Below, piece by piece: positions 2,219 to 33,077 of a DNA stretch of 33,077 nucleotides. The notes below the pieces were generated by a model that saw only the letters and a program-made list of their open reading frames with translations, did no database searches and was not told where the DNA came from. The stretch is from a virus: the IMG/VR virus record IMGVR_UViG_3300010966_000046, positions 1 through 33,077 of that record; one strand, 5' to 3'. The translations under genes were made by a program, and so were the position numbers. How positions within the stretch are numbered: position 1 is the stretch's first letter; each line of letters begins with the position of its first letter.

Positions 2219-2332
2219 TTAAGGTCTAAGACTTGATTTGTCTATTGACACATTGGCAGCCTGTAAACATTCCCAGTAACTCTCGTGGTCTTGTGTATCA
2301 CAACCAGCGCGACAAATTCCGTTAGATTCCAT
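2219..2332 (-). CDS. Cys/His mini-protein (37 aa)
   Basis: A 37-residue ORF starting at ATG 2332, which overlaps the PP-loop gene stop (TGATG). It contains CRAGC, then DTQDHESYWECL. The pattern CxxxC...QDHxSxxxCL recurs in actinobacteriophage small proteins, as far as I recall, and the Cys/His spacing suggests a zinc-binding knuckle. It fills an otherwise empty 125-base gap and keeps the overlap coupling of the operon, which supports it being real. Role unknown. Confidence 0.65.
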   Translation of the reverse strand: MESNGICRAGCDTQDHESYWECLQAANVSIDKSSLRP

Positions 2333-3135
2333 CAGTCATCCTCATAGTCTGTAAAGCATCCACATCCACCAATGTCTAAGTCATCAAATAGTTCTGGTTG
2401 CTGTTCTTTGCGTTGTCTAATAACGGTCAATGGCAAACGCTTTGTTTCACCATTTATAGTTTCTTTAAGTATTGAAACTTCGCCTAGCTGATCTTGCATT
2501 AACAATTCTTGATGTTCCCATTCAGCAAATCGTTCAGGCATTACATCTAGAAGTTTCTTGAACTGTGCTTGTCCAGCTCTAACGCAACCACCACCACAAT
2601 TATTATGAGCAAATCCCATTGCATAAAGTCGCGGTGGTTCTAAACTTTCTGACTTTGCCCATTCAATTAAGTCTTGCTTATTGAAGTAAGGCGCATCAGT
2701 TAGTGGTGCTTCTGCTTTATACGGTAAATAGTTGCGCACAATAGATGGCAACCGATGAATCTCTGACCAGTCAATTCCAACATAGACAATTGTTTCATTT
2801 GGGTCGCAGTTAGCTTCAAGCCAATTTCTTGCAGGCTTCTGTTTGAGAATGTGAGAGCAGTTAGCAAGTCTTGAATTTCCAAGAAACTTTTTATCTCTAA
2901 AGACTTCCCAGATGTTTCTGCCATCCATTACAGTTACAACTGTTGCGCCTATGTTTGTTGCTGCATCTTTAATAAATCTGTAAGTATCTTCATCTTCGCC
3001 TATGTGTGGATTGTCTGTGTGACCTTTGACGTCACTAAATAACAGAGTCACATCATCAGAACCAAACTTTTCGACTACTCGCTTTGCTGTTGCCCATGAT
3101 CCAATCCCACCACTAAACATAACAACGTGTTTCAT
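2332..3135 (-). CDS. PP-loop ATPase, PAPS reductase-like
   Basis: 267 aa. The ATP-pyrophosphatase PP-loop FSGGIGSW is at residues 7-14. NCSHILKQKPARNWL (93-106) resembles the CysH/PAPS reductase helix. It also has NNCGGGC (C180, C184) and GGCGC near the C-terminus (C258, C260), so C93, C180, C184 and a C-terminal Cys could bind an Fe-S cluster or zinc. Family members activate a carbonyl or sulfate by adenylation; DndC (DNA phosphorothioation), TtcA (tRNA thiolation) and PAPS reductase are relatives. The phage substrate is unknown. The gene sits between HNH and DNA methylase genes, so nucleic acid modification is a reasonable guess. Overlaps flank both ends. Confidence 0.8.
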   Translation of the reverse strand: MKHVVMFSGGIGSWATAKRVVEKFGSDDVTLLFSDVKGHTDNPHIGEDEDTYRFIKDAATNIGATVVTVMDGRNIWEVFRDKKFLGNSRLANCSHILKQKPARNWLEANCDPNETIVYVGIDWSEIHRLPSIVRNYLPYKAEAPLTDAPYFNKQDLIEWAKSESLEPPRLYAMGFAHNNCGGGCVRAGQAQFKKLLDVMPERFAEWEHQELLMQDQLGEVSILKETINGETKRLPLTVIRQRKEQQPELFDDLDIGGCGCFTDYEDD

Positions 3136-3672: not shown

Positions 3673-3895
3673 GGCGATTTTCTAAATCGTCTTTGAATGA
3701 ACGCTGAAGATTATCCGTGTATGAATACTCACGATCTAGAGCTGCAAAGATTGGTTCCATTGAGTCAGTCTGACCGTTTAGGTACTCAAGCCATTCCTTG
3801 TGCTGTAAAGCCTGATGATGTTGAGCCAACCGATACCCGGCAAAGAATACCAAAATGCTCATAGATGCTACTGAAAGAATTAGGGCAATAATCAT
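3665..3895 (-). CDS. Small membrane protein with cytoplasmic tail
   Basis: 76 aa from ATG 3895, chosen because ATGA overlaps the SSB stop; a GTG at 3901 would add two residues. Residues 1-22 are a hydrophobic segment ending in a Tyr/Arg boundary (GYRLAQHH), so one transmembrane helix or signal anchor is likely. The rest is charged and probably helical. It sits downstream of SSB in an early operon. Role unknown. Confidence 0.7.
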   Translation of the reverse strand: MIIALILSVASMSILVFFAGYRLAQHHQALQHKEWLEYLNGQTDSMEPIFAALDREYSYTDNLQRSFKDDLENRRG

Positions 3896-4266
3896 AACCA
3901 CGGGTCACTTTCTGGTGCTGTTGTCTTTGCTTTGGATGCCTTGACCACTGCTGCAATTTCATCAGCTGTAATCTCAACGGTTGTACGCTCAACGCCGTTC
4001 TTGTCCTCGTACTTTACGACCTTGCATTTACCTACTACTAGGATTGGCTGACCCTTTTTGAATGTGTCACCTGCTGCTTCAGCTAATCCACGCCAAAGAA
4101 CAATGTCAAAGTAACTAGTGTCACCGTCTGACCATGTGCCGTCTTGTGCTTTCTTACGCTCATTGCAAGCAATGCGCATCTTGCAACGGCTTACGCCTGA
4201 TGCAGTTACTTGGAAATCTGGTTCAAAAACCAAGTTCCCGGTTGCTGTGATTGTTGGTAGTGCCAT
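3892..4266 (-). CDS. ssb: Single-stranded DNA-binding protein
   Basis: 124 aa OB-fold SSB: MALPTITATGNLVFEPDF at the start, CKMRIACNERK, TSYFDIVLWRGLAEAA and KGQPILVVGKCKV follow the usual order of SSB strands. The C-terminus ESDPWL is an acidic tip like the DDIPF tail through which SSBs recruit replication and repair proteins, but ends in WL rather than PF. The linker is very short compared with bacterial SSB (about 170 aa). It starts in a TAATG overlap with the WhiB gene and is coupled to a membrane protein gene downstream. It belongs with RusA and the Rad52-like protein in the recombination module. Confidence 0.93.
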   Translation of the reverse strand: MALPTITATGNLVFEPDFQVTASGVSRCKMRIACNERKKAQDGTWSDGDTSYFDIVLWRGLAEAAGDTFKKGQPILVVGKCKVVKYEDKNGVERTTVEITADEIAAVVKASKAKTTAPESDPWL

Positions 4267-4598
4267 TAGATTGCTCCTGCTTCTCTTTGTCGCTCACGGT
4301 ATGTGCGCGAATTCTTAGCTTGATTTGTTTCTACTTGAAACGTGTTCTTGTATTCTTCATCTATCCGTATTGCTGTTATCCCAAAGAACTTGCGCAACTG
4401 CACACGATCCTTGTCTGATGTTCCTGCCCACCAGCCCTCGACTTTCACCTTTAATGAATACTCAAGGCAGTCATCAAAGATTGGGCAACGTAGGCAAGTC
4501 TTTTTAAGTAAGTCCTCAATTTTGGGACTCATGTTATTGGTTGGAAAGAACAATTCAGGGTCTAGCCCAATACAAGCTGCGCCGTCTGTGTTAAACAT
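4266..4598 (-). CDS. WhiB-like Fe-S transcription regulator
   Basis: 110 aa from ATG 4598, which has GAGG six bases upstream. The four cluster ligands fit WhiB spacing: C9 in GAAC, then CLRC (C35, C38) and C44. FFP follows the first Cys, and GWWAG (55-59) takes the place of the usual G[VI]WGG turn. The basic C-terminus (RKFF, RTYRERQREAGA) can bind DNA. WhiB proteins are restricted to actinobacteria and their phages and act with the primary sigma factor, so this gene is the best evidence for the host group. It overlaps RusA upstream and SSB downstream. It is divergent from the second WhiB at 6639-6977. Confidence 0.88.
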   Translation of the reverse strand: MFNTDGAACIGLDPELFFPTNNMSPKIEDLLKKTCLRCPIFDDCLEYSLKVKVEGWWAGTSDKDRVQLRKFFGITAIRIDEEYKNTFQVETNQAKNSRTYRERQREAGAI

Positions 4599-5010
4599 CC
4601 TGCACCTCGCTTGCAATTATTTGACAACCAATTCTGTCTGTGGCGTACTGCTTAGATGCGCTCACAGCTATTACAAGAGCATCATCCGTATAAAGACCAC
4701 CAGTTGTAAGCCCGTCAAATGTAGAGCGAATTAACTTGTCTAGATCAGGCTTCACACTAGGCCATTTACGGCTAACAGTCTTTGGTCTAGGTAAATAAAA
4801 CACAAGCCCTATTTCCACCGGTGTAGTTATAGTCCATTGCTCTGCATTAGGCCATTTACTAGCTCGATACTCTTGCGTTTGAGCTGCAACGGCTTCGCGC
4901 CAAGGCTTAACCTTTTTGCTTGATTCAACTAGGACTACACGACCATTCTTAACAAAGCCATTTTTAGAACCTTGTGGTGCTGGTTCGCCCTCAACAAAAT
5001 AGTTAATCAT
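4591..5010 (-). CDS. rusA: RusA-type Holliday junction resolvase
   Basis: 139 aa from ATG 5010. The core KPDLDKLIRSTFDGLT with D89 and D91, followed by LYTDDALV with D110, matches the metal-binding Asp spacing of E. coli RusA (70, 72, 91). The N-terminal EGEPAPQGSKN is also typical. It cleaves four-way junctions as a dimer, resolving recombination intermediates before packaging. Length (RusA about 120 aa) is normal. It overlaps the small membrane gene upstream by 8 bases and WhiB downstream. It works in the same module as the Rad52-like annealing protein and SSB. Confidence 0.92.
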   Translation of the reverse strand: MINYFVEGEPAPQGSKNGFVKNGRVVLVESSKKVKPWREAVAAQTQEYRASKWPNAEQWTITTPVEIGLVFYLPRPKTVSRKWPSVKPDLDKLIRSTFDGLTTGGLYTDDALVIAVSASKQYATDRIGCQIIASEVQDV

Positions 5011-5152
5011 CACTAACCACTAACCGTAATTGCGCTACTAAAGCATCTTGCTGTTCTTGAATCTGGCGCGGTAATGATTGCGCGAAAGCCATTATTAGCA
5101 TTCCAAAGAATCCACCTAGTAGGAATAAGACTGCTCCCAATACAAAGCTCAT
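5003..5152 (-). CDS. Small one-TM protein (49 aa)
   Basis: Starts at ATG 5152, overlapping the Rad52-like gene stop (ATGA). Residues 2-25 are hydrophobic (FVLGAVLFLLGGFFGMLIM), then a Gln-rich helical tail RQIQEQQDALVAQLR. It is a probable membrane-anchored protein with a short cytoplasmic coiled-coil-like tail. It fills a 135-base gap and keeps the overlap pattern on both sides. Function unknown. Confidence 0.65.
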   Translation of the reverse strand: MSFVLGAVLFLLGGFFGMLIMAFAQSLPRQIQEQQDALVAQLRLVVSDD

Positions 5153-5712
5153 GCGCCTAACTCAACTTTCTTATTGTCAAAGATAAGTCGTAGGTTGCGC
5201 TTTTCTGCTTCTGTAAATGTGCCACCCTGAATAAGTGGGACTACCTCAGTCAGTTCAATTAGTGAACCGGCATTACCGATACGCTCAATCATCTTTTGAG
5301 TAGCTGTGCTTAGTTCCTTAGTGGCTTTAGGTGCTGGTGTTGTTTCTGCTGGTGCTTCCTTAGCCCATAGGTCAAGTGCTACGCCATATCTCATGGCTGC
5401 GTTCCTGACGGCATTTCCAATTGCCGATTTTTTCTGATCGTACTTATCTCTAGTTGCTGGTTCACCGTAGCCGTACCGGGTAACACCGCAAACAGTTAAT
5501 TTGATCCATAGACCACCGTTTTCATCAAACTTAGGCAAACCAGAATCATCAAATGCGACTGGCTCCCAGTTCCATGTTGGGTCTACCTTAAGCAAGCGAT
5601 CAGTTACCCAAGCGTGGCTAACGTAATCTAATTGCAGTCCACCTGTCGGTAGCTTTTGAATCTGCTCTTTAGGGAACGGTGCGCGTAACGCATCCTGTTG
5701 TTCTTGTTTCAT
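5149..5712 (-). CDS. Rad52-like single-strand annealing protein
   Basis: 187 aa. LRAPFPKEQIQKLP, then LDYVSHAWVTDRLLKVDP, WNWEPVA, GLWIKLTVCGVTRYGYG and AIGNAVRNAAMRYGVALD are characteristic of phage Rad52-type annealing proteins. The conserved fold ends near residue 115. A Pro/Ala-rich linker leads to a short helical C-terminal domain (about 130-187). The protein anneals complementary single strands during phage recombination. SSB and RusA are in the same operon; a partner exonuclease is not visible in the window. It starts in a TAATG overlap and is coupled to a one-TM gene downstream. Confidence 0.85.
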   Translation of the reverse strand: MKQEQQDALRAPFPKEQIQKLPTGGLQLDYVSHAWVTDRLLKVDPTWNWEPVAFDDSGLPKFDENGGLWIKLTVCGVTRYGYGEPATRDKYDQKKSAIGNAVRNAAMRYGVALDLWAKEAPAETTPAPKATKELSTATQKMIERIGNAGSLIELTEVVPLIQGGTFTEAEKRNLRLIFDNKKVELGA

Positions 5713-8581: not shown

Positions 8582-8736
8582 TGCTTTGCTCCTGTCATTA
8601 GTTCAATTGCTGAACGGATCACTTGACTTACGTTTGCATTGTGTTGGTGCGCCCATTGTCTAACCGCAAGCATCTGCTCGCTGTTAAGTCGCAGGGCAAC
8701 TAAATTGTCTTTGTTTTCTTTCTGTTCGTCAGCCAT
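8578..8736 (-). CDS. Ribbon-helix-helix DNA-binding protein
   Basis: 52 aa from ATG 8736, chosen for AAAGGG six bases upstream; it overlaps the Mom-like stop. NLVALRLNSEQMLAVRQW forms the beta strand and first helix, and NVSQVIRSAIEL the second helix, the Arc/CopG pattern. Such dimers bind short operators, and palindromes exist nearby (9916-9925). It could autoregulate the early operon. No toxin partner is adjacent, so it is unlikely to be an antitoxin. Confidence 0.75.
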   Translation of the reverse strand: MADEQKENKDNLVALRLNSEQMLAVRQWAHQHNANVSQVIRSAIELMTGAKQ

Positions 8737-9406
8737 TGCTAACCCTTTCTTTTGGATACGGCTGTATCTCATACCGCAGGTCTTTAAGCATTTGTTTGCG
8801 TTGAGTCTTTGACCCAGATAAATAAATGTAACGGTGCTTTCTTGATCTGTCTATAAAGTAAACATTCTCTGCGCCGTACTTTTCTATGAGTTGCTTATTA
8901 GTCAAACCGTGTGCATAGGTCGCGTGATGCTGATGCTCTAAACCTCGAACCACTGGATCACGAAACTTGCTGCTCAGTCCTGTGTATAGAAAGTTAGTGG
9001 CCTGATAAACAATGCCCTCATGGTTCTGCTTTGTATCTGCGTAGCTGACCACAATAGTTGGCTTTGGCAGTAGCTTTAATGATGCGCCTACTAAACGGCT
9101 GGCTTCATGTGGCAAGTTATTAACTAGCACTAACCGATTGAGTTCTAAGACATGCTCTGCCCAGTGATCACCACAGACACCGCGCAACAAAGTAGATGAG
9201 GCTGGCGTTCCATAAGTTACAACTCCAACTAGATGCCCAGCTAAAAACAATCCGAATGCGTAACTGATTGACGGTCTGCGCTTTGCATAATGCACATTCA
9301 GAATTAGGTACTCAGCATCTTGCGCTTGTATAGGTGCTACTGAGTAACCGTCTAGAACGTCAAAGAAACTTGACTGCCACTGCATCTGTTTATGACTCGC
9401 AGTCAT
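8729..9406 (-). CDS. Mom-like adenine modification protein
   Basis: 225 aa. ILNVHYAKRRPSISYAFGL (35-53), VGVVTYGTPAS (60-70), ELNRLVL (88-94), ASRLVGASLKLLP (102-114) and SYADTKQNHEG followed by YQATNFLYTG (121-143) follow the order of the phage Mu Mom family. Mom is a GNAT-fold enzyme that converts adenines in phage DNA to a bulky N6-acetamido/carbamoylmethyl form and blocks host restriction enzymes. ATG 9406 overlaps the previous gene by 17 bases; ATG 9385 (MQWQSSFF) is an alternative. The RHH gene follows with overlap, perhaps as a regulator; Mu also controls mom tightly. The family call is from memory of its motifs. Confidence 0.75.
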   Translation of the reverse strand: MTASHKQMQWQSSFFDVLDGYSVAPIQAQDAEYLILNVHYAKRRPSISYAFGLFLAGHLVGVVTYGTPASSTLLRGVCGDHWAEHVLELNRLVLVNNLPHEASRLVGASLKLLPKPTIVVSYADTKQNHEGIVYQATNFLYTGLSSKFRDPVVRGLEHQHHATYAHGLTNKQLIEKYGAENVYFIDRSRKHRYIYLSGSKTQRKQMLKDLRYEIQPYPKERVSNG

Positions 9407-20415: not shown

Positions 20416-21276
20416 CTACTTGCGTTCTGTTAATGCCCTACGGATTCCCTCACGCAAACTAATCTGAGGTCTGAAATACTGATGCGATAAATGCGGATCA
20501 CCTACGCGATACTGCACCCCTGTTGGCTTTGTAATTATGTGATTGAACTCAGGGTCAATGCCGGCTTCCTCACAAACCATTTTTGCCAATTCGTTAAAGC
20601 TAGTTGGGAAGCCTGAGCATAAATTGAATGTCCCAATGTACTCTGTCTGAACGTGCCAAAGCACAGCCTGAACAATGTCCTCAATGTGGATGAAGTCGCG
20701 CACCTGTTCCCCATTGCCCCAAATGTCAAACACTTTAACCCCGGCTAATGCGCGGTCAATGAAACTAGGAAACGGATAATCAGAATCTTGGTCTGAGCCA
20801 TAACCTGAGAACGGCCTAAAGATAAACATCTTGGAATCGGTTACAAACTGCGCTAAGTATTCGCCAGTCAGTTTTGCCCAGCCATAAGTTAGGTCAGGAT
20901 TCTTAACCGCATTAAGGTTTAGATCGTATTCAGCCAATCTATTTAGACGGTGTGTTTCCTGTAACTCAATTGGATAGGCAGCTGAACTGGAGAAGTAAAC
21001 CACATTTACGGGTTTTGTCTTTTGCACCCAATTAAAGAACTCTGCATCTATTGACAGGTCAGTTGCTACCGATAAAGGCTCACCCTCGATAGTGGCACGA
21101 CCACCAACAATGGCTGCTAAGTGAATGACCAAATCAAACTGTTCGCTGTTGGTCTTAAAGAAATCTCTGCAATCGTTTCCGTCTTTTAGGTCTATGCCTG
21201 TTATGTCGCTATCTGGCAAAGCCTTAATAAAGTTGCGACCAACAAAGCCCTTATGCCCGGTGATTAAAATTTTCAT
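20416..21276 (-). CDS. NAD-dependent NDP-sugar epimerase/dehydratase
   Basis: 286 aa, extended SDR fold. Rossmann motif TGHKGFVG (6-13), catalytic SSSAAYP (96-102) and YGWAK (Y131, K135). It resembles GDP-fucose synthase or UDP-glucose 4-epimerase relatives. The C-terminal part binds the nucleotide sugar. It is the last gene of the sugar cassette and supplies a modified sugar for the glycosyltransferases. The precise sugar cannot be told. Start overlaps the methyltransferase by 4 bases (ATGA). Confidence 0.85.
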   Translation of the reverse strand: MKILITGHKGFVGRNFIKALPDSDITGIDLKDGNDCRDFFKTNSEQFDLVIHLAAIVGGRATIEGEPLSVATDLSIDAEFFNWVQKTKPVNVVYFSSSAAYPIELQETHRLNRLAEYDLNLNAVKNPDLTYGWAKLTGEYLAQFVTDSKMFIFRPFSGYGSDQDSDYPFPSFIDRALAGVKVFDIWGNGEQVRDFIHIEDIVQAVLWHVQTEYIGTFNLCSGFPTSFNELAKMVCEEAGIDPEFNHIITKPTGVQYRVGDPHLSHQYFRPQISLREGIRRALTERK

Positions 21277-21818
21277 TTACATACCCAAATCTGGTAGTCG
21301 TAGTAATAGGTTTGTTCTAGTTCCAATAGTTCAAAAGACACAATCTCAAAGCCTGCTGACTCCAGTAGCTCTTGAATCCCTGCCTTATCCCAAGCCCAAT
21401 AGTGTTCCTCATTAACGTCATCCCATTTAGCGTGAGGAGTTGTAAGCAATAGGTACTTGGTTTTCTTGCGTATCTGTGCAAGTACCTCAGCAGGGTTATC
21501 TAAATGCTCTAAGGTTTCTGAACAAATGTATAAGTCCACATCAGGTATCTGTTCAATCGTTTGTTCAATGGCACCTGTAAATTGGTACTTAGGTGCATAG
21601 TCACCAATGTAAGTTTTATCCAACCCAAGCGCAATAATTATGAACGCATCACCAGCTGAAAGATCAGCTACGGATTTAACCCCGTCAATTGCTTGTGCAA
21701 TCTCTAGAGTTCTATTGACCCTAACTATGTGATCTTGCCAAGCCGTGTGATCGTGTGGCGTTGCATAAATCTCTGCCAGTCTTTGATCAGAATGCTTAGG
21801 TCTTAATCTGGTAATCAC
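21273..21818 (-). CDS. Class I SAM methyltransferase
   Basis: 181 aa from GTG 21818 (TAGTG overlap). SVADLSAGDA is a divergent motif I (usual D.G.G.G), and CSETLEHLDNPAEVL and LLLTTPHAKW match small Rossmann methyltransferases (Methyltransf_11/23 type). WAWDKAGIQELLESAGFEIVS is a typical C-terminal part. In the sugar cassette it probably methylates a sugar hydroxyl, which is inference from context. The missing glycine-rich motif may weaken SAM binding. Confidence 0.8.
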   Translation of the reverse strand: MITRLRPKHSDQRLAEIYATPHDHTAWQDHIVRVNRTLEIAQAIDGVKSVADLSAGDAFIIIALGLDKTYIGDYAPKYQFTGAIEQTIEQIPDVDLYICSETLEHLDNPAEVLAQIRKKTKYLLLTTPHAKWDDVNEEHYWAWDKAGIQELLESAGFEIVSFELLELEQTYYYDYQIWVCK

Positions 21819-22492
21819 TACCAAGCCTTGACATTCTCAACGTCATTACTAAATTCTGTTGCTAGGTATTCAGCAAAGATAGCCTGATCGCCATTGTGCA
21901 TTTCAGGATTGTTTACAGCTGCGTATCTATCGTCATGCTCTGCCTTGCCATTTGTGTAGTGCAGATGTTCAAGGATTACATCTGGCAAGTAGTTCACGTT
22001 CTCTAAAGCGTGACCCATTGCAAGCCAATAGTTATCTAGGAACAAATGCTTTAAAGCTGGCGGTGACATAAAGCCCGTAGCCCTAATGATCTTGCTAGAC
22101 ATAACTACGGCAGTTGGCAAATTCTCACCTTGTAGTAAATCGTTTCCGTATGCAATGCCCGGCTCTGTGCCAATAGCTTCTGCAAGTTTCATGTCCCAAC
22201 CACCTGTGCGCGGTAGGTGATCGTCACCCATAAAACAGATGTAGTCATAGTCAGGCGCAAACCATAAAGCCCAATGGTTAAGAGTGCCGTTCATTCCCAT
22301 ACGGTCTGCAATAACAACTTTGACGTTATCTAGCCCTGTTGTTTCGTGCATAAGTCCTGCGTAGGTTTCAACATCATCTGCATCTATTGCAAACACAACT
22401 TCTGTAAAGTCTGCCGTTGCGTTAATGGCTTCAAATAATCTAATCGCGTTATCGTTGCGACCCCGTGTGGGAATGATAGTAAGCATTCTCAT
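21818..22492 (-). CDS. GT-A type glycosyltransferase
   Basis: 224 aa from ATG 22492, chosen for its ATGA overlap. MLTIIPTRGRNDNAIRLF is the nucleotide-sugar binding start of GT2-like enzymes, and FMGDDHLPRTGGWD (87-100) holds the metal-binding Asp pair in DxD position. LDNYWLAMGHAL could contribute to acceptor binding. The enzyme is soluble. It probably transfers a sugar onto a protein or a growing glycan. Confidence 0.85.
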   Translation of the reverse strand: MRMLTIIPTRGRNDNAIRLFEAINATADFTEVVFAIDADDVETYAGLMHETTGLDNVKVVIADRMGMNGTLNHWALWFAPDYDYICFMGDDHLPRTGGWDMKLAEAIGTEPGIAYGNDLLQGENLPTAVVMSSKIIRATGFMSPPALKHLFLDNYWLAMGHALENVNYLPDVILEHLHYTNGKAEHDDRYAAVNNPEMHNGDQAIFAEYLATEFSNDVENVKAW

Positions 22493-23292
22493 TGTTGTAC
22501 CAGTTTCCAAAATGTATCCCCTGCTTTATCTATCATGTGGCGTAACGCATCTGCATCATGCCAATCCTCAACGCTGGTAATTCCAACATTGTCGTTTGTG
22601 TGAATCCTGCAACCTGAAAGCACCGCTTCCATAACTGCCCTGCATTCTGACTCAAAGGCTAATGGCAGGTGAACAAACCATTCCACTCTTGCCATTGCAT
22701 CTAATACATGTTCACGCGGTACATCGCTAAGAGCTTTAAATTCGTAGCCTGCCTGAGCTGCCCAAGCGTGAGCGCGTAGCTGACCTTTTAACGGATGATT
22801 CCTAGCAGCCCATAATGCAATCGGTTTCTTGTCTAAGTTGTCGTAGCACTTGCTGGTGTCGAAGTAGCTTAGAACCTGCGCGGTCTTGCGTGGTTTAGTC
22901 CAAGCCAATTCCCTGCGCATGTGTGCCGGGGTATGGGTTACGAATAAGCGAGAACCACGAATCAAGGCGTTAAGTCCTGCGCGTGGTGTTTGTAGGTGAT
23001 GCACAAAAACGAATGGGTCATACTCGCCTAATTGAGTTAGTTGCTGATCAGAGAATGAATCTGTGCCTGTAACCACTATGGAATCGAATTGGTGTATGTC
23101 GTGTGTATCGAATGTGTATGGGGTAACAATCTCAATCTCGTAGTCCAAAGGTGCTTGCAGACGGTATTCGTAGTCTGACATTTCTGCGCCACCTGCAAAC
23201 TGCCCCGTGAATAGCCCTGTGGAGTTCACAGAGCCATCCAGAGCCACGTTAGTAGTGTTCTCTATGTGATGTGTGTACCAGCCGATTTTCAC
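22489..23292 (-). CDS. GT-B type glycosyltransferase
   Basis: 267 aa. ALWAARNHPLKGQLRA and the ESECRAVMEAVLSGCRI motif (E..EA form of GT4 enzymes) mark the C-terminal nucleotide-sugar-binding domain. The N-terminal domain is short (MKIGWYTHHIENTTN). At 267 aa it is much shorter than usual GT4 enzymes (350-400), so its acceptor domain is reduced. The start overlaps the upstream glycosyltransferase by 4 bases. Confidence 0.75.
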   Translation of the reverse strand: MKIGWYTHHIENTTNVALDGSVNSTGLFTGQFAGGAEMSDYEYRLQAPLDYEIEIVTPYTFDTHDIHQFDSIVVTGTDSFSDQQLTQLGEYDPFVFVHHLQTPRAGLNALIRGSRLFVTHTPAHMRRELAWTKPRKTAQVLSYFDTSKCYDNLDKKPIALWAARNHPLKGQLRAHAWAAQAGYEFKALSDVPREHVLDAMARVEWFVHLPLAFESECRAVMEAVLSGCRIHTNDNVGITSVEDWHDADALRHMIDKAGDTFWKLVQQ

Positions 23293-24470
23293 GCCGTAGG
23301 CCGTTCTGTGCCTTTTGAACCCAATACCTTTAAAGCAGGTTTCCAGTATTCGTTAAACACGGTGTCTGCGTTATACGCCTTTGCAAAATCTTGCGCCTTT
23401 TGTGAGCGACCTCTACCACGTTGATAAGCCTGTTCTAGAGCATCAACAATTGCTGGAACGCTAGGCATATGAAACCAGCTAGATTGAGGTGCATCCCATA
23501 ATGGCTGACCGTCAATTAACCAGCCGTCACCAACTAGCTCAGTTGAAGCTGCGAATTCAGAAACGATTACAGGTGTACCGCAAGCCTGCGCTTCAACAGT
23601 TGGAACGCCAAAGCCCTCACCGTATGAAGTTGCAAGTAGAACATCCATAGCCGTATAAATGGTTGCCAATGTTGGCTGATCTATACCGGTTCGTAATGTG
23701 TACGGATCCATGAAAGCGTATTGGTGTTCAGGGATTCCAACGGATGTAATTAGTTCTTGAAGTTTGATGCCACCTAATGAGCCAAGTGCGTCTGTGTGTA
23801 AATAAAGAACTGCGTCATCGTGCATCTGAGCAAACATAGAGAACGCAAGAATGTTCTCACCAAATGCCTTGCGATTAGGACTTACGCCTTTATTGGCTGC
23901 GTTCATTCCTACAACAAATCGATCCTCGCCAATACCTATAAAGTCGCGCCCTGTTGTTCCCTTATGGCGTTTCATTGGTTTGAATGTGGACTCAACAGCG
24001 TGTGGAATGTATAGCGATTCAATGCCTACGTTTTCTAGCATCGCTTGTCCGTATTCGCTCATGGCAATAGGGGTAACAAAGTCTTGCCTGCACCATTTGG
24101 CAACAGCTGGCGGTGCTGGCAAGTGATCTATTGGAACCCAACTAGCAACATTCCAATCACCCCAACGTGGGCCTTTAAGAACCCAAGCATCATAAAGCGT
24201 AAACAGAATGTGATTTTGCTTTGGATTATGTTCAGTCCAATTAAACATATGTGCAGGGATAACGTCATTGGAATACATATCCGCGCCACGTTGATAAATG
24301 GGCATCCCGTTCCATTCAGTATTGGAACCCTCTAAACCGTAGTTGTTAAAAATTGCTACGTTGTGACCCATTGCTTTCATACGGCTAGTCACTTGAGCCG
24401 TTTGCATCCCATAGCCTGTGTTAGCCCAAGGCGCGTTAGATACCCAACCAATACATAAAGAATCTTGCAC
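23289..24470 (-). CDS. GT4 family glycosyltransferase
   Basis: 393 aa, GT-B fold. IGWVSNAPWANTGYGMQTAQ forms the N-terminal donor-acceptor loop, and EGFGVPTVEAQACGTPVIVS is the GT4 EX7E-type motif near the C-terminus. GTG 24470 has AAAGGA seven bases upstream. It is the first gene of the cassette and follows the capsid terminator, so it probably has its own promoter. Related enzymes in phages decorate virion proteins or alter host surface sugars. Confidence 0.9.
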   Translation of the reverse strand: MQDSLCIGWVSNAPWANTGYGMQTAQVTSRMKAMGHNVAIFNNYGLEGSNTEWNGMPIYQRGADMYSNDVIPAHMFNWTEHNPKQNHILFTLYDAWVLKGPRWGDWNVASWVPIDHLPAPPAVAKWCRQDFVTPIAMSEYGQAMLENVGIESLYIPHAVESTFKPMKRHKGTTGRDFIGIGEDRFVVGMNAANKGVSPNRKAFGENILAFSMFAQMHDDAVLYLHTDALGSLGGIKLQELITSVGIPEHQYAFMDPYTLRTGIDQPTLATIYTAMDVLLATSYGEGFGVPTVEAQACGTPVIVSEFAASTELVGDGWLIDGQPLWDAPQSSWFHMPSVPAIVDALEQAYQRGRGRSQKAQDFAKAYNADTVFNEYWKPALKVLGSKGTERPTA

Positions 24471-24584: not shown

Positions 24585-25775
24585 TTAGGAAGCTGCACCT
24601 TGGAAGAACTTAACGTGCGAGTTCTGAATAAGGTTGCCATCGGCGCGCATCGTGATTCTGAACGAAATTAAATCGTTCTGGAATGCGTAATCATCGGAAC
24701 GATCTACGCGCAATCCACCAACGGTGCGTACGAAGTAGCTTGGCAAGTGACCAAACAAAACCGACTTAGCGGAAGTTGCTGGATCAGCCATAGCTGGGTT
24801 TTCGTAAACTTCGTAACCAAGAATAAGGTCACGCTTGTCACCTGATAGAGCTGGTGAGAATACATAGTTTCCAGCGGTGTCCTTTAACTTACGAACAGCT
24901 GCAATGGACTTTGCGTTCATCATGAAGCCAGTTCCCGGTAGGGTACGACCTGCTGTATCAACGCTGTAAACCAAGTCAATTAGGTTGTCTGCGGTGAATG
25001 CACCAGATACTGCGGTTGAACCGGTGATGCCTGAACCAGCAGCAGTAACGATACCTGTTGGCTGTACTGTTCCTGTTCCAGTTGTTAGTGCGCCATTGAC
25101 TGCGAAGCCAATTGCGTTACCAGCTTGTTCTGAAAGGAATCCAAGGATATCTACGCCTGCATCGGATACCATTTCACGGCTTACCTGAGTTAGGAATGAA
25201 TACTTGTATGCACCAAGAGTCTTGAACGCATTGAATGTTGGATCACTTTCACCAATTGCATTACCCTCAGATGTAACCGTACCCGTAGAATACGCACTTA
25301 GTGAAGGTATCTGGAGATTTTCTCCCCCTGCTGTGTTAATGATTGTTGATGTTTCTAGAAGTGGACCGATTTTTCTGGCCAACATAACAACATTGTCATA
25401 AAATGACGTAGGCACGGGACTGCCAGTTGAAGTCTTTAGAACATCACGCTTTTCAAATGATGCGCTACGGATTTCACCACGAGCTAGGGAACGGATAAGT
25501 TCTGCATCGTCAATTGCTGGAACAGCAAACGCTGGCTTAACTTGTGTTTCAAAACCCTTCATGGCTTCAGCAGCGCGTTCTTCGCGTTCTGTTTGTGCCT
25601 TGATGGTGTCAATTACCTGTGAACGCTGATCAAGGTCTGCCATGATGCGATCATAAGTTTGGTTTTCTTCGCCGGTAAGTTCGCGCTTTTCAGCTGCTGC
25701 TGAGTCGAGAAGAGCCTTTGCTTCTTCCCAAGCCTTTGCACGAGCTTCCGCTTGCTGACGGATGTAGTCAGACAT
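24585..25775 (-). CDS. Major capsid protein (HK97 fold)
   Basis: 396 aa. Residues about 1-105 are a helical coiled-coil delta domain (SDYIRQQAEARAKAWEEAKALL), the internal scaffold removed by the prohead protease. The mature part has TGSPVPTSFYDNVVMLARKIGPLLETS, VSREMVSDAGVDILGFLSEQAGNAIG and C-terminal GLRVDRSDDYAFQNDLISFRITMRADG, typical of the HK97 fold. AGGAG precedes ATG 25775. It lies between two terminators, so it can be expressed alone at high level. Confidence 0.95.
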   Translation of the reverse strand: MSDYIRQQAEARAKAWEEAKALLDSAAAEKRELTGEENQTYDRIMADLDQRSQVIDTIKAQTEREERAAEAMKGFETQVKPAFAVPAIDDAELIRSLARGEIRSASFEKRDVLKTSTGSPVPTSFYDNVVMLARKIGPLLETSTIINTAGGENLQIPSLSAYSTGTVTSEGNAIGESDPTFNAFKTLGAYKYSFLTQVSREMVSDAGVDILGFLSEQAGNAIGFAVNGALTTGTGTVQPTGIVTAAGSGITGSTAVSGAFTADNLIDLVYSVDTAGRTLPGTGFMMNAKSIAAVRKLKDTAGNYVFSPALSGDKRDLILGYEVYENPAMADPATSAKSVLFGHLPSYFVRTVGGLRVDRSDDYAFQNDLISFRITMRADGNLIQNSHVKFFQGAAS

Positions 25776-25936: not shown

Positions 25937-26644
25937 TTAGAACGCTTTTAGCATTAGGTCAAGTTGCTTACGCTTAATCTCAAGCATATCTACTGCACTT
26001 GGTTGATCTGAACGAATCTTATTTACAACCTCAGCAATTAGGTCTGCGTGTTCTGCTTCTAAAGTTTCGCCTGCTTCTAGCTTTGTAATGGCTTCACTTA
26101 AAGCGTCTACATCTACGGCGGTACGTTCTGCCAAAATGTCTAGTGAACGAACGCTTGCAGTTGTTGCTTCATAGGCAGGGAATCCAGTAACAATGGAAAC
26201 CTCATGCAAACGCACCTGATGAAGTTCACGGGTTGCGCCGTCTTGACTCCAAGCATCACCCTTTGGTGGAACGCTAAAGCCAAATGACATTGAAGAAACA
26301 TCGCCACGTTTCATAAGAACCGATAGGTCGCGCCCTGCGCTAGTGTCTGGCAATTCAGCCTGAGCAAGTAGACCGCGTGAATCCTCAGTTAGTTTAAGAG
26401 TTCCAGCGCGTGTAGAGCCAAGAACAACATCTGTGTTGTGGTTCATAAATAGCTTGATTTCGTTACGCGATTTCAATGAACGTTTAAATGCACCCTCACG
26501 GATAACCTCTGTGAACGGTAGCGGTTCTGACGGGCTATTGAATACAGCTGCATAGCCTGTAAAACTCATGCCATCGCTTGATGCTTCACCGTTACGAATG
26601 TCAAACTCAACGGTATTAACTCGGCGTTCTACATTGGTGGTCAT
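25937..26644 (-). CDS. Possible internal-start product: protease domain alone
   Basis: ATG 26644 (residue 314 of the fusion) has GAAAGG seven bases upstream, within the linker just before the protease domain. Translation there would give a 235-aa protease, the normal length for this family. The site is seen in the sequence; its use is inferred. Confidence 0.45.
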   Translation of the reverse strand: MTTNVERRVNTVEFDIRNGEASSDGMSFTGYAAVFNSPSEPLPFTEVIREGAFKRSLKSRNEIKLFMNHNTDVVLGSTRAGTLKLTEDSRGLLAQAELPDTSAGRDLSVLMKRGDVSSMSFGFSVPPKGDAWSQDGATRELHQVRLHEVSIVTGFPAYEATTASVRSLDILAERTAVDVDALSEAITKLEAGETLEAEHADLIAEVVNKIRSDQPSAVDMLEIKRKQLDLMLKAF

Positions 26645-27583
26645 TGACTGCCTTTCGTCTTTGTTTAAGTTTAGCGCGATTGAACGCCATTTCTCATTTT
26701 GTATGTCATTAACTGAGCGTTCTTCATCTGGATCGTTTTCATCTGACGGAACTTCTGGAACGTCTGTTACATCTAGTGCAGTAATTCCTAGTTCACGGTA
26801 GACCTTGCGATTGGCAGGGTTGTTATCTATGGCAATGATTACGTTGTATTCCTGCAATAACTTTTCTGCCGTTGCCTTTTTAAATTCTGGAGTTTGTGCG
26901 CTACTGCCCGGATTCATAAATAAACGGTCATAGTAAATACCTAAAGAATCAAGTTCTGCAACCGTTGCATCCCGTGTTGAATCGTTGCGACCTGTGACAA
27001 TAAAGATTTCAGTATCTTCCATGTCATCTATGTAGTTATACGTTTTCTCAATCAACCGACCACCTGAAATAAGCGTTCCGTCAATGTCCACAATTACAGC
27101 TAATGGCCCTGACTCAATGCGTAGAGAATCCTCTTCATCATCCTGCATTTCATCATCTTGCATTTCGTCTTGGCCTTGATACTCAAACTTAGTTAGTGGC
27201 GCAAAACCCTTAAGCACAAACTGTTGAGTTTCAATTAGTTCGTTTTCATTCTTTGTGTAAACCTGAATAGTCGCAATAGGTGTGTTCTGTGATGCGCTTA
27301 CGCTTCCACCCAAAGGATTAGTAACTTCACCAAATGTTGAAATGGAAGTTATCTCGCCGTACATGGTGTTGCCACCATTGTCCCAAAACACATAATCGCC
27401 AACTTCAAGCTCACCATTAAGTGCGCGTTCGCCACCGGGTTCCATGTCCTCAGCTAGTGAAACTGCAAGCATCTGATCTATGGCTGCTTGCTTAGTTGTA
27501 TGACAACCCATAACTTCGCCATCCTCTTTAACGGTAGCCCAACCTGTGCAGTCAGGGGATTTATCTGTGATGAAATACGGCAT
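25937..27583 (-). CDS. HAD phosphatase-like domain fused to HK97 prohead protease
   Basis: 548 aa from ATG 27583 (TAATG overlap). Residues 1-55 (MPYFITDKSPDCTGWATVKE) resemble a segment found at the start of some actinophage protease/capsid proteins; 58-130 is a beta-rich domain. An acidic repeat linker (QDEMQDDEMQDDEE) leads to a HAD-like domain: VDIDGT (D166, D168), IVTGRN (T197), EFKK (K235) and IDNNP (D253), all four HAD motifs. A second linker leads to an S78 prohead protease (about 324-480) with FMNHN (H382) and GDVSSMSFGF (S433). The protease cleaves the capsid delta domain. The HAD role is unknown. Confidence 0.88.
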   Translation of the reverse strand: MPYFITDKSPDCTGWATVKEDGEVMGCHTTKQAAIDQMLAVSLAEDMEPGGERALNGELEVGDYVFWDNGGNTMYGEITSISTFGEVTNPLGGSVSASQNTPIATIQVYTKNENELIETQQFVLKGFAPLTKFEYQGQDEMQDDEMQDDEEDSLRIESGPLAVIVDIDGTLISGGRLIEKTYNYIDDMEDTEIFIVTGRNDSTRDATVAELDSLGIYYDRLFMNPGSSAQTPEFKKATAEKLLQEYNVIIAIDNNPANRKVYRELGITALDVTDVPEVPSDENDPDEERSVNDIQNEKWRSIALNLNKDERQSMTTNVERRVNTVEFDIRNGEASSDGMSFTGYAAVFNSPSEPLPFTEVIREGAFKRSLKSRNEIKLFMNHNTDVVLGSTRAGTLKLTEDSRGLLAQAELPDTSAGRDLSVLMKRGDVSSMSFGFSVPPKGDAWSQDGATRELHQVRLHEVSIVTGFPAYEATTASVRSLDILAERTAVDVDALSEAITKLEAGETLEAEHADLIAEVVNKIRSDQPSAVDMLEIKRKQLDLMLKAF

Positions 27584-28460: not shown

Positions 28461-29816
28461 CTAAACCTCATAAACAGACTGTGGTGCTTCAGGGTCAATT
28501 TGGGCAATACCTTGCAACATAACGCTTGGAACGCCTGTATGTTCTATTGACGGCAAGCCTAGAGCTTCAAGAACAGCAGCAGGGTCAAAGCCAGTAGTAA
28601 CAAGCCTTTGAGCCATAAGAACTTTACGGTCAGTTTCAACGAGTGCAGCAGCAGCCAAATCCACGTTAGCCAAAGGTACACGATAAACGTCACCACCTTG
28701 AACAGGTCGCAAGTCCTCGAATCTTCTAATGTCATTGACTGAAAGAAATCCTGCCTGTGAACCGATTGAATAGCCATTCATTCTGGTAGCAAAGTCACCA
28801 CGAAGCAGACCGTCTACATTAAAACGAATAAACGCATTATCTGGTAGCAATGCGCTGTAAGCATCCTCAATCTTAGCTATGTATGGGCGCAAGGTATGAG
28901 TAACAAAGTTAATGCCATTTTGTTCTACTGATGCGTAAGACATTGCACCCGGTGTTGTAACGCCAATCATGTGCGGTGGAACGCGGAAGATTCGCGCAAC
29001 TTCCTCAATGGCAAGTTTGCGACTATCTAGCATCTGGGCTTCATCAGGATTAACGCCAGTTCTTACAAATTTTGCGCCACCTGTAAGTAGTCCAGTCTTA
29101 TGAGCTTTGCGGAATCCGTCATGGCGGTTACTGAATGAATCAACAAGTTGTTTAGCTTGATCGCTCTTTAGGTCTTGTGGGGTTTCAATAATTCCCTGAG
29201 TAGTTGCACCCTGACCAAAGAAACGTGCTGCAAAAGATTGCAAGGCACTAGATAAACCTAGATTGTCTTTTAGCTCTGTAACACGCGACATACCGCGCAG
29301 ATCGCCAGCCTTGCGCATTTCTGTAATCTGCAACATATCACGCTTGCTAACTGGAACATCTTGGTTTTCGTCAATGATGTATTCAATTTCACGAGTACGA
29401 ATGTTACGAGTTACGGTCACGCGGTTAGGCGCAATACAAACTAGGTTTACTACGTCACCACGGTTATCACGGAACACGCGAACAAAAGCGTTACCGTCTA
29501 GCAATAGGGAAATAAGAACTTGCTGATAATGCTCAGAACGTAATAGGTCTACGTCTGGTCTTTGAATCCATGACGGCTGAGGTCTAAAAGGTACGCGGTC
29601 ACCATCTACCCTGCGGAAACAATCAACTGGCAAAGTGCTGATTGTGTCAGAAATTAAAAGAACACAAGCGTAAAAGGCATTTATTTTCATTGCCTGTGTC
29701 TGGTCAATGTTTGCACCTGATTCGGTAGTGAAAGCAAACGAATCGCCAGCACCCCAGATTGACTGGAAACTAATGGCGCGTTCCTCTTTATTACCGCCGG
29801 TCAAATTACCAAGCAT
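28461..29816 (-). CDS. Portal protein (HK97 type)
   Basis: 451 aa. KINAFYACVLLISDTISTLP, HYQQVLISLLLDGNAFVRV, the stem-region FRVPPHMIGVTTPGAMSYASVE and THTLRPYIAKIEDAYSALL are the usual HK97-family portal motifs. It forms the dodecameric ring at one vertex through which DNA is pumped. ATG 29816 overlaps the small membrane gene's stop (TAATG). Confidence 0.95.
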   Translation of the reverse strand: MLGNLTGGNKEERAISFQSIWGAGDSFAFTTESGANIDQTQAMKINAFYACVLLISDTISTLPVDCFRRVDGDRVPFRPQPSWIQRPDVDLLRSEHYQQVLISLLLDGNAFVRVFRDNRGDVVNLVCIAPNRVTVTRNIRTREIEYIIDENQDVPVSKRDMLQITEMRKAGDLRGMSRVTELKDNLGLSSALQSFAARFFGQGATTQGIIETPQDLKSDQAKQLVDSFSNRHDGFRKAHKTGLLTGGAKFVRTGVNPDEAQMLDSRKLAIEEVARIFRVPPHMIGVTTPGAMSYASVEQNGINFVTHTLRPYIAKIEDAYSALLPDNAFIRFNVDGLLRGDFATRMNGYSIGSQAGFLSVNDIRRFEDLRPVQGGDVYRVPLANVDLAAAALVETDRKVLMAQRLVTTGFDPAAVLEALGLPSIEHTGVPSVMLQGIAQIDPEAPQSVYEV

Positions 29817-31912: not shown

Positions 31913-33077
31913 CTATTCCTCTACGAGTTCAGCAGTCTTACCTGTGTAAGATTCCCAACGCTTAATAATTACATCACAATACTTTGGATCAAGTTCCATT
32001 GTAAAACATCGTTTGCTTAATTGTTCACACGCGATCAAAGTTGTTCCAGTCCCACCAAATAAATCTGTTACTGATTCAACAAAATCTAATTTTTCTATTA
32101 TCCACTTTGGGAAAGCTAATGGGAATCCTGCTTTATGTGTATCAGCATTTTCGTTATTGGAATTGTTTTCAGTTTCTATTACATTTGAATATTTACTCTG
32201 CCATTGTGCAGGAAACCCACGAGTTTTATTATCTTTTGAAAATGCAAAAACGTATTCCCATTTTGTATTAAATGCGCCTTTAACTATGTTTGGTGGGCAG
32301 GTAGATTTGTTCCAAATTAAAATGTCTTTCAAATAATCTACAAAATGATTTTGAAATCTAATGAGTGGTTTTCTATTATGAGTTAGTAGCTGTAAATTAA
32401 CAAAACAATAATCACTTATTTCAATTGCGTTTTCAGTAGTTTTTACTAACAGTTGAAGAAAATCATCATCGCTTAATTCATCAGAACTATTTTGGTATTT
32501 GTTTTCAAATCCATTCACAATCCCGTTTAGATGCGAATTTTTGTTTGCGTTATATGGTGGTGACTGCAAAGTGATGTTGGTTCTGTTTCCACCTAATAAT
32601 TTCGCTATTGAATCTTTATCAGTTGAATCACCACATAACACTCTGTGATTTCCTAGCTGCCATAAGTCACCGAGTTTTGTTCTAGTTGGAACATCGTCAA
32701 AATTCAAGGGTTGTTCATCTTCTGGAATTGTAGGCGGTTGCAAATTCTCAAAACCTAGTTCTTCAAGTTCCCAACCATTCGCATCTAGTTCAAGTAACTG
32801 ATCTGACAGAACCTTGTCATCCCATTCTGCGAGTTCGGCGGTGCGGTTATCAGCCAACGCAAAAGCCTTAATTTGATCCCAAGTCCAACCAACAGGAGTG
32901 CGAGCAATAGCAATCTCCGACCAACCCAAAGACTTCGCAGCTTCAAGTGTGCCGTTGCCAGCAACCACGATTGAGTCAGGCGTAACCACAATTGGTTTAC
33001 GTTGCCCGAACTTTTCTAGTGAGCTACTTATTGCCTTTAGGTTCTTGCCGTCATGCTTGCGAGCATTGGCAGGATCA
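31913..33077 (-). CDS. ParB-domain/DNA methyltransferase fusion, 5' end cut by the window edge
   Basis: Open to the right edge. The visible 388 codons begin DPANARKHDGKN and FGQRKPIVV, then VVAGNGTLEAAK, a ParB/sulfiredoxin-type DNA-binding/nucleotidase domain (first about 130 residues). The methyltransferase domain follows with TQSPPYN-like LQSPPYN as motif IV and DLFGGTGTT as the SAM motif near the end. SPPY is typical of N4-cytosine enzymes. The region 32200-32640 is strikingly AT-rich (two 60-base lines counted at 27-28% G+C). Phages often carry such fusions before the terminase genes. GTG 32989 is not the start, since the frame is open upstream. Confidence 0.88.
   Translation of the reverse strand, partial: DPANARKHDGKNLKAISSSLEKFGQRKPIVVTPDSIVVAGNGTLEAAKSLGWSEIAIARTPVGWTWDQIKAFALADNRTAELAEWDDKVLSDQLLELDANGWELEELGFENLQPPTIPEDEQPLNFDDVPTRTKLGDLWQLGNHRVLCGDSTDKDSIAKLLGGNRTNITLQSPPYNANKNSHLNGIVNGFENKYQNSSDELSDDDFLQLLVKTTENAIEISDYCFVNLQLLTHNRKPLIRFQNHFVDYLKDILIWNKSTCPPNIVKGAFNTKWEYVFAFSKDNKTRGFPAQWQSKYSNVIETENNSNNENADTHKAGFPLAFPKWIIEKLDFVESVTDLFGGTGTTLIACEQLSKRCFTMELDPKYCDVIIKRWESYTGKTAELVEE

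Follow-up and report, generated by a model that had tools for sequence, protein, structure and literature searches.

Prohead protease gene with a fused HAD phosphatase-like domain and a conserved internal start in a virus of probable aquatic actinobacteria

Prohead protease and a HAD phosphatase-like domain share one open reading frame (ORF) in a viral sequence of 33,077 nucleotides (IMG/VR record IMGVR_UViG_3300010966_000046, analyzed over its whole length and called the window below), and a start codon inside that ORF, conserved in most relatives, would yield the protease by itself. Here, we report the analysis of this gene, from which, judging by the conservation of the internal start, both a long and a short product are very probably made. 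We think it fairly likely that such a dual-product gene serves to load an enzyme into the prohead by way of its long product. The gene, its parts, and its neighbors are listed below (AF2, AlphaFold2; SD, Shine-Dalgarno).

25937..27583, minus strand: fusion ORF of 548 amino acids (N domain, beta barrel, acidic linker, HAD, linker, S78), from translation, Pfam/PHROG, AF2, and 66 contigs
27449..27583, minus strand: N domain, residues 1 to 45, common to nearly all relatives and phage phiPsal1 (AF2 pLDDT, 72 to 87)
27176..27403, minus strand: beta-barrel domain, residues 61 to 136, tudor/SH3-like, from a profile match and AF2
27113..27175, minus strand: acidic linker, residues ~137 to 157, DEMQDDEMQDDEED, from the sequence; disordered (AF2 pLDDT, <50)
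26735..27106, minus strand: HAD phosphatase domain, residues 160 to 283, with D166, D168, T197, K235, and D253
25937..26644, minus strand: S78 prohead protease, residues 314 to 548, from Pfam, alignment, and fold match
26651..26656, minus strand: internal SD GAAAGG (codons GAA AGG), from conservation
26642..26644, minus strand: internal ATG, start of the predicted 235-amino-acid protease (residues 314 to 548), from conservation and a free gene in contig L117
27583..27849, minus strand: upstream gene of 88 amino acids, unassigned function, whose stop overlaps the long-form start as TAATG
28461..29816, minus strand: portal protein, upstream, with homologues at the same position
24585..25775, minus strand: major capsid protein, next gene downstream

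The long ORF starts at ATG 27583 and lies between the portal and major capsid protein genes, the usual place of prohead proteases. Peptidase_S78 was found by Pfam at residues 327 to 480 (E value, 4e-43; 147.9 bits against a cut-off of 21); H382 and S433, which we take to be the catalytic His and Ser of the S78 site, are invariant in 37 homologues, and T4 gp21 (5jbl) matches the protease domain (Z score, 10.5) in an AF2 model of the full ORF built with 37 homologues. A preliminary description made from the letters of the window had placed protease and HAD domain in one ORF, which Pfam and PHROG profiles and the same pairing in one ORF in 66 other contigs (one of them, L083, a bacterial metagenome-assembled contig) now confirm. 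The acidic linker that it described is present and disordered in the model, as is a second linker (residues 283 to 337) between HAD and protease. Its N-terminal beta domain holds for the barrel but not as a single domain, as a separate N domain precedes it; the Hva1_TUDOR match of the barrel is weak in the window and significant in a relative (L043; PF11160, 6.9e-6). A further domain, “Y” (PHROG 2859), is frequent in relatives and absent from the ORF of the window.

The HAD domain was confidently modeled (AF2 pLDDT, 82 to 94), and its closest structure is the T4 polynucleotide 3'-phosphatase (T4 Pnkp; Z score, 17.3; 1.8 Å over 118 residues), followed by Pnkp1, Nir2 LNS2, and lipin, with class B/C acid phosphatases also close and many HAD structures matching at Z scores above 10. 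Structure prediction thus upholds the HAD fold proposed earlier and places it in a PNKP-like clade. PNKP is also the best Pfam HAD match (HAD_PNKP, PF25109, residues 162 to 273; E value, 3.4e-7), marginal at 30.9 bits against a cut-off of 27.6, with relative L037 at 26.9 bits against the same cut-off, and PHROG 415 (polynucleotide kinase) matches the fusion ORF (7e-18). A profile of the HAD family run against the PDB retrieved Pnkp1 (1e-7) and T4 Pnkp (5.8e-5); a profile was needed, as phmmer with a single HAD sequence against the PDB gave no match. Nucleotide searches with the HAD regions of L141 and L109 gave no match.

All four HAD motifs lie where the preliminary description put them: D166, D168, T197, K235, and D253 are invariant in 37 fusion homologues (49 to 88% identical to the window), and the catalytic residues are also invariant in 30 HADs, including portal-fused and stand-alone ones, with dN/dS for the domain at 0.04 to 0.18. 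In the divergent relative L109, E replaces the motif IV Asp. Motif IV reads D-[ND]-[ND] and is DN in nearly all HADs aligned, whereas T4 Pnkp has DD. Because DN at motif IV occurs in active HAD phosphatases of the SCP/FCP type, activity is likely, and we regard the domain, on its conserved residues, as probably an active phosphatase. Positions D254 and D278 of T4 Pnkp, presumably essential, are not conserved in the HAD domain, which leaves a polynucleotide substrate no more than possible; Pfam and PHROG found no kinase domain on the fusion protein, and no ligase is attached either. The likeness to polynucleotide phosphatases noted earlier therefore stands in the closest fold, and the suggested role in end repair is weakened by the DN of motif IV, the shorter stretch between motifs I and II, the lack of kinase and ligase, and the other fold neighbors; nucleic-acid ends are a doubtful, tentatively held substrate.

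The internal ATG at 26644 was found with its GAAAGG, as described earlier, the spacer between SD (26656 to 26651) and ATG being 6 nucleotides, and start and SD are conserved in most of 30 sequence clusters. Relatives fall into groups whose members are related, and the following counts do not equal independent events. Group I always has ATG with GAAAGG (or GAAGGG) six bases upstream; the Arg codon of its SD is AGG (AGG usage, 5%) except in three genes with Gly as GGG, so that the change from Arg to Gly keeps the SD. Group II has Val in the same column, encoded by GTG in 13 of 13 (GTG makes up 17% of Val codons), with the SD in another codon phase (GAAAAGGA). Group III starts at TTG, three codons earlier, in 14 of 14 (TTG makes up 31% of Leu codons), and L048 has GTG. 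The eight codons of SD and start have the highest synonymous conservation of 157 windows tested (0.89 versus a mean of 0.55).

When all in-frame starts are ranked by SD energy, the junction start comes first in 27 of 50 distinct genes and second of 16 in the window. Synonymous shuffles over the 30 clusters gave a combined Fisher P value of 1.6e-6, which is indicative only, as the clusters are related, and most clusters have no equal start in any other window upstream. Three clusters (L089, L090, and L108) lack the internal start and three more (L097, L106, and L107) have a weak one, 6 of 30 in all, and those fusions may make the long form alone. The earlier proposal of two products from one gene is thereby strongly supported. 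For the long form, the TAATG overlap with the upstream stop makes translational coupling probable.

Several module orders occur among the fusions: N-HAD-Y-S78, N-barrel-HAD-Y-S78, N-HAD-barrel-Y-S78, N-HAD-DUF5824-Y-S78, N-Y-HAD-S78, and, in L106, N-Dps-HAD-Y-S78 (ferritin match, 4.7e-18). Relatives without HAD were also found, with the N domain kept, and the modules exchanged at this cassette comprise HAD, Dps, DUF5824, tudor-like, Cys-rich, and ART-like domains. HAD also occurs as portal-Y-HAD-MuF (L067 to L069) and portal-HAD-Y (L122 and L123; portal, 7e-42); more than one event of attachment to head proteins is thus very probable. Stand-alone HADs of the same family lie within ~1 kb of a Dps/ferritin-like gene in L071, L120, L121, and L066; in L106, these two modules are joined to the protease in one protein. 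No head protein was among the INPHARED HAD matches from cultured phages that were listed (part of 335 records), a point against head loading; their annotations were polynucleotide kinase or a related kinase/phosphatase, ATPase, and hypothetical protein.

The two halves of the fusion also occur apart. In L117, which overlaps L023 at 100% identity, the N-HAD-Y half runs into an ART-like domain without a protease, so the front half can exist apart from the protease; the gene order is N-HAD-Y-ART-like, putative zincin, zeta-toxin-like kinase (3e-17), a small gene, S78, and capsid protein. The free S78 protease of this contig has 235 amino acids, is 66% identical to the short form of the window, and begins at the same point; the predicted short form thus exists as a free protein elsewhere. 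In L110 to L116, the N-domain protein (N-Cys-Y; N-Y in L113 and L114) and the protease are separate genes. The ART-like label is tentative (Pfam ART-PolyVal E value of only 0.044; mean AF2 pLDDT of 46 for the L023 domain), and the second gene of L017 and L023 is called a zincin only on a HEWGH motif read by eye. Three consecutive proteins of L017, L023, and L117 (the ART-like fusion, the putative zincin, and the zeta-like kinase) carry the motif RHLPGxHxQxxHGxGG, placed close to or at the point where the enzyme domain is joined; it is possibly a shared targeting or processing signal.

The window carries two WhiB genes, and whiB has been described as an actinophage hallmark (PMC10202952), which points to an actinobacterial host, probably aquatic actinobacteria. 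Among cultured phages, Pontimonas phage phiPsal1 (MG835450; major capsid protein, 47% identical) is the closest relative. Its prohead protease shares the N domain, S78, a TTG at the site of the internal start, and the gene order but lacks HAD, having instead a Cys-rich stretch (HIPIP-like, weak) and a Y domain.

Compared with the caudovirus S78 protease (PF04586, PHROG 80), the protein is alike in its catalytic His and Ser and its position between portal and major capsid protein, and the PHROG 80 profile already covers the N domain; it differs in the HAD between N domain and protease and in the internal start. T4 Pnkp is alike in predicted fold, motifs I to III, and an Arg after motif II, but the HAD of the window is shorter between motifs I and II, has DN at motif IV, is fused to a head protein, and stands without a kinase. 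In phage lambda, the nested C/Nu3 genes likewise yield two in-frame products, a long one with the protease and a short one begun internally; there the short product is the scaffold, whereas here it would be the protease itself. Nudix domains fused to MuF, portal, and capsid-processing serine peptidase are predicted to be packaged and injected (PMC9503650), MuF and portal effector fusions have been described (PMC5512222), and a further paper belongs to the same field of polyvalent proteins and virion-packaged effector fusions (PMC5576092). Such fusions resemble ours in placing modular, exchangeable enzymes on head proteins, and the relatives with HAD between portal and MuF do so too. The principle of enzymes on head proteins is thus published; in the literature searched, which covers the field in part, we found no description of a HAD phosphatase on the prohead protease together with an internal start that is conserved.

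In the mechanism that we propose, initiation at 27583, coupled to the stop of the upstream gene, would give the long protein, and initiation at the internal ATG 26644 with its own SD would give an ordinary 235-amino-acid protease. The short form would carry out head maturation; the long form would co-assemble through its protease domain and so bring N domain, barrel, and HAD into the prohead. There the protease would cut the flexible linkers and leave the enzyme inside the virion, from which it may pass into the next host together with the DNA, HAD being one of several exchangeable modules in the cassette. Conservation of the fusion in 66 contigs suggests HAD as head-loaded cargo, fusion of the same modules to portal-MuF and portal in other phages supports placement in the prohead indirectly, and, by analogy with the effector fusions above, packaging of the long form seems somewhat the better guess. 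We infer the release of the enzyme by protease cleavage; its delivery to the cell with the DNA, again by analogy, is possible but a little doubtful. More generally, and tentatively, the protease of these actinophages could be a cargo vehicle in which the internal start sets the ratio of plain to tethered protease and an enzyme (HAD, Dps, or others) is carried, freed, and delivered.

The HAD domain might instead act in the infected cell late in infection, on substrates such as nucleotides, the ends of nucleic acids, or a phosphorylated host factor; the fusion would then be translational only, with HAD perhaps cut off by the protease and never packaged. Such a role would suit the disordered linkers on both sides of HAD, the N-HAD half made without protease in L117, and the stand-alone HADs of large phages (L071 and L121), but we think it rather unlikely, since repeated fusion to S78, portal-MuF, and portal is difficult to account for unless localization to the head is of benefit. 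That the N-terminal half is structural, a scaffold-like part or regulatory propeptide whose HAD fold binds without catalysis, is improbable: its place N-terminal to a protease working inside the prohead and the conservation of the N domain in proteins without HAD agree with the idea, yet every HAD catalytic position is invariant, the module can be absent, moved, or paired with unrelated enzymes, unlike a structural part, and L117 has the protease without the front half.

Compatible with head loading, but on the unlikely side, is a 3'-phosphatase that heals DNA ends, either packaged or incoming, or the ends of RNA cleaved by host defense. For it speak the nearest fold and profile matches, T4 Pnkp and the Pnkp1 of the Pnkp1/Rnl/Hen1 RNA repair complex, and the best Pfam HAD match; the motif IV sequence, the changed D254 and D278 positions, the missing kinase or ligase partner, and the nearness in fold of LNS2/lipin and acid phosphatases argue against it. 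That a frameshift error produced the fusion by chance, or that the gene is decaying, could be argued from the ORF split by a frameshift in L054 and from the separate genes in L110 to L117, but such an artifact, sequencing error included, is ruled out by the 66 contigs, the invariant catalytic residues, and the low dN/dS of HAD. The frameshift in L054 (ORF at 3799 to 5395) falls within the protease.

Loading of HAD through the long product would tie an enzyme of head assembly to the route by which these phages, whose hosts are probably aquatic actinobacteria, load virion enzymes, and it suggests why PNKP-like phosphatases recur on head proteins. Tethering to the protease with self-releasing cargo, if true, would be a natural capsid-loading system. 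The two products would have predictable N termini, and HAD peptides would be expected in virions, so that this reading is directly testable.

Between the capsid and head-tail genes, the window holds a block (20416 to 24470) that encodes at least two glycosyltransferases, an epimerase of nucleotide sugars, and a methyltransferase with a weak match, possibly for virion or DNA glycosylation; glycosyltransferases directly after the capsid gene were also found in phiPsal1 and other relatives. A Mom-like DNA modification protein (8729 to 9406; PHROG 1384, 3e-53), a PAPS-reductase-like gene (2332 to 3135), and methyltransferase-like ORFs assigned by eye (780 to 1913 and 31913 to 32989) together suggest DNA modification. 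An HslV-family peptidase homologue (PHROG 1040, 3e-20) lies at 229 to 783.
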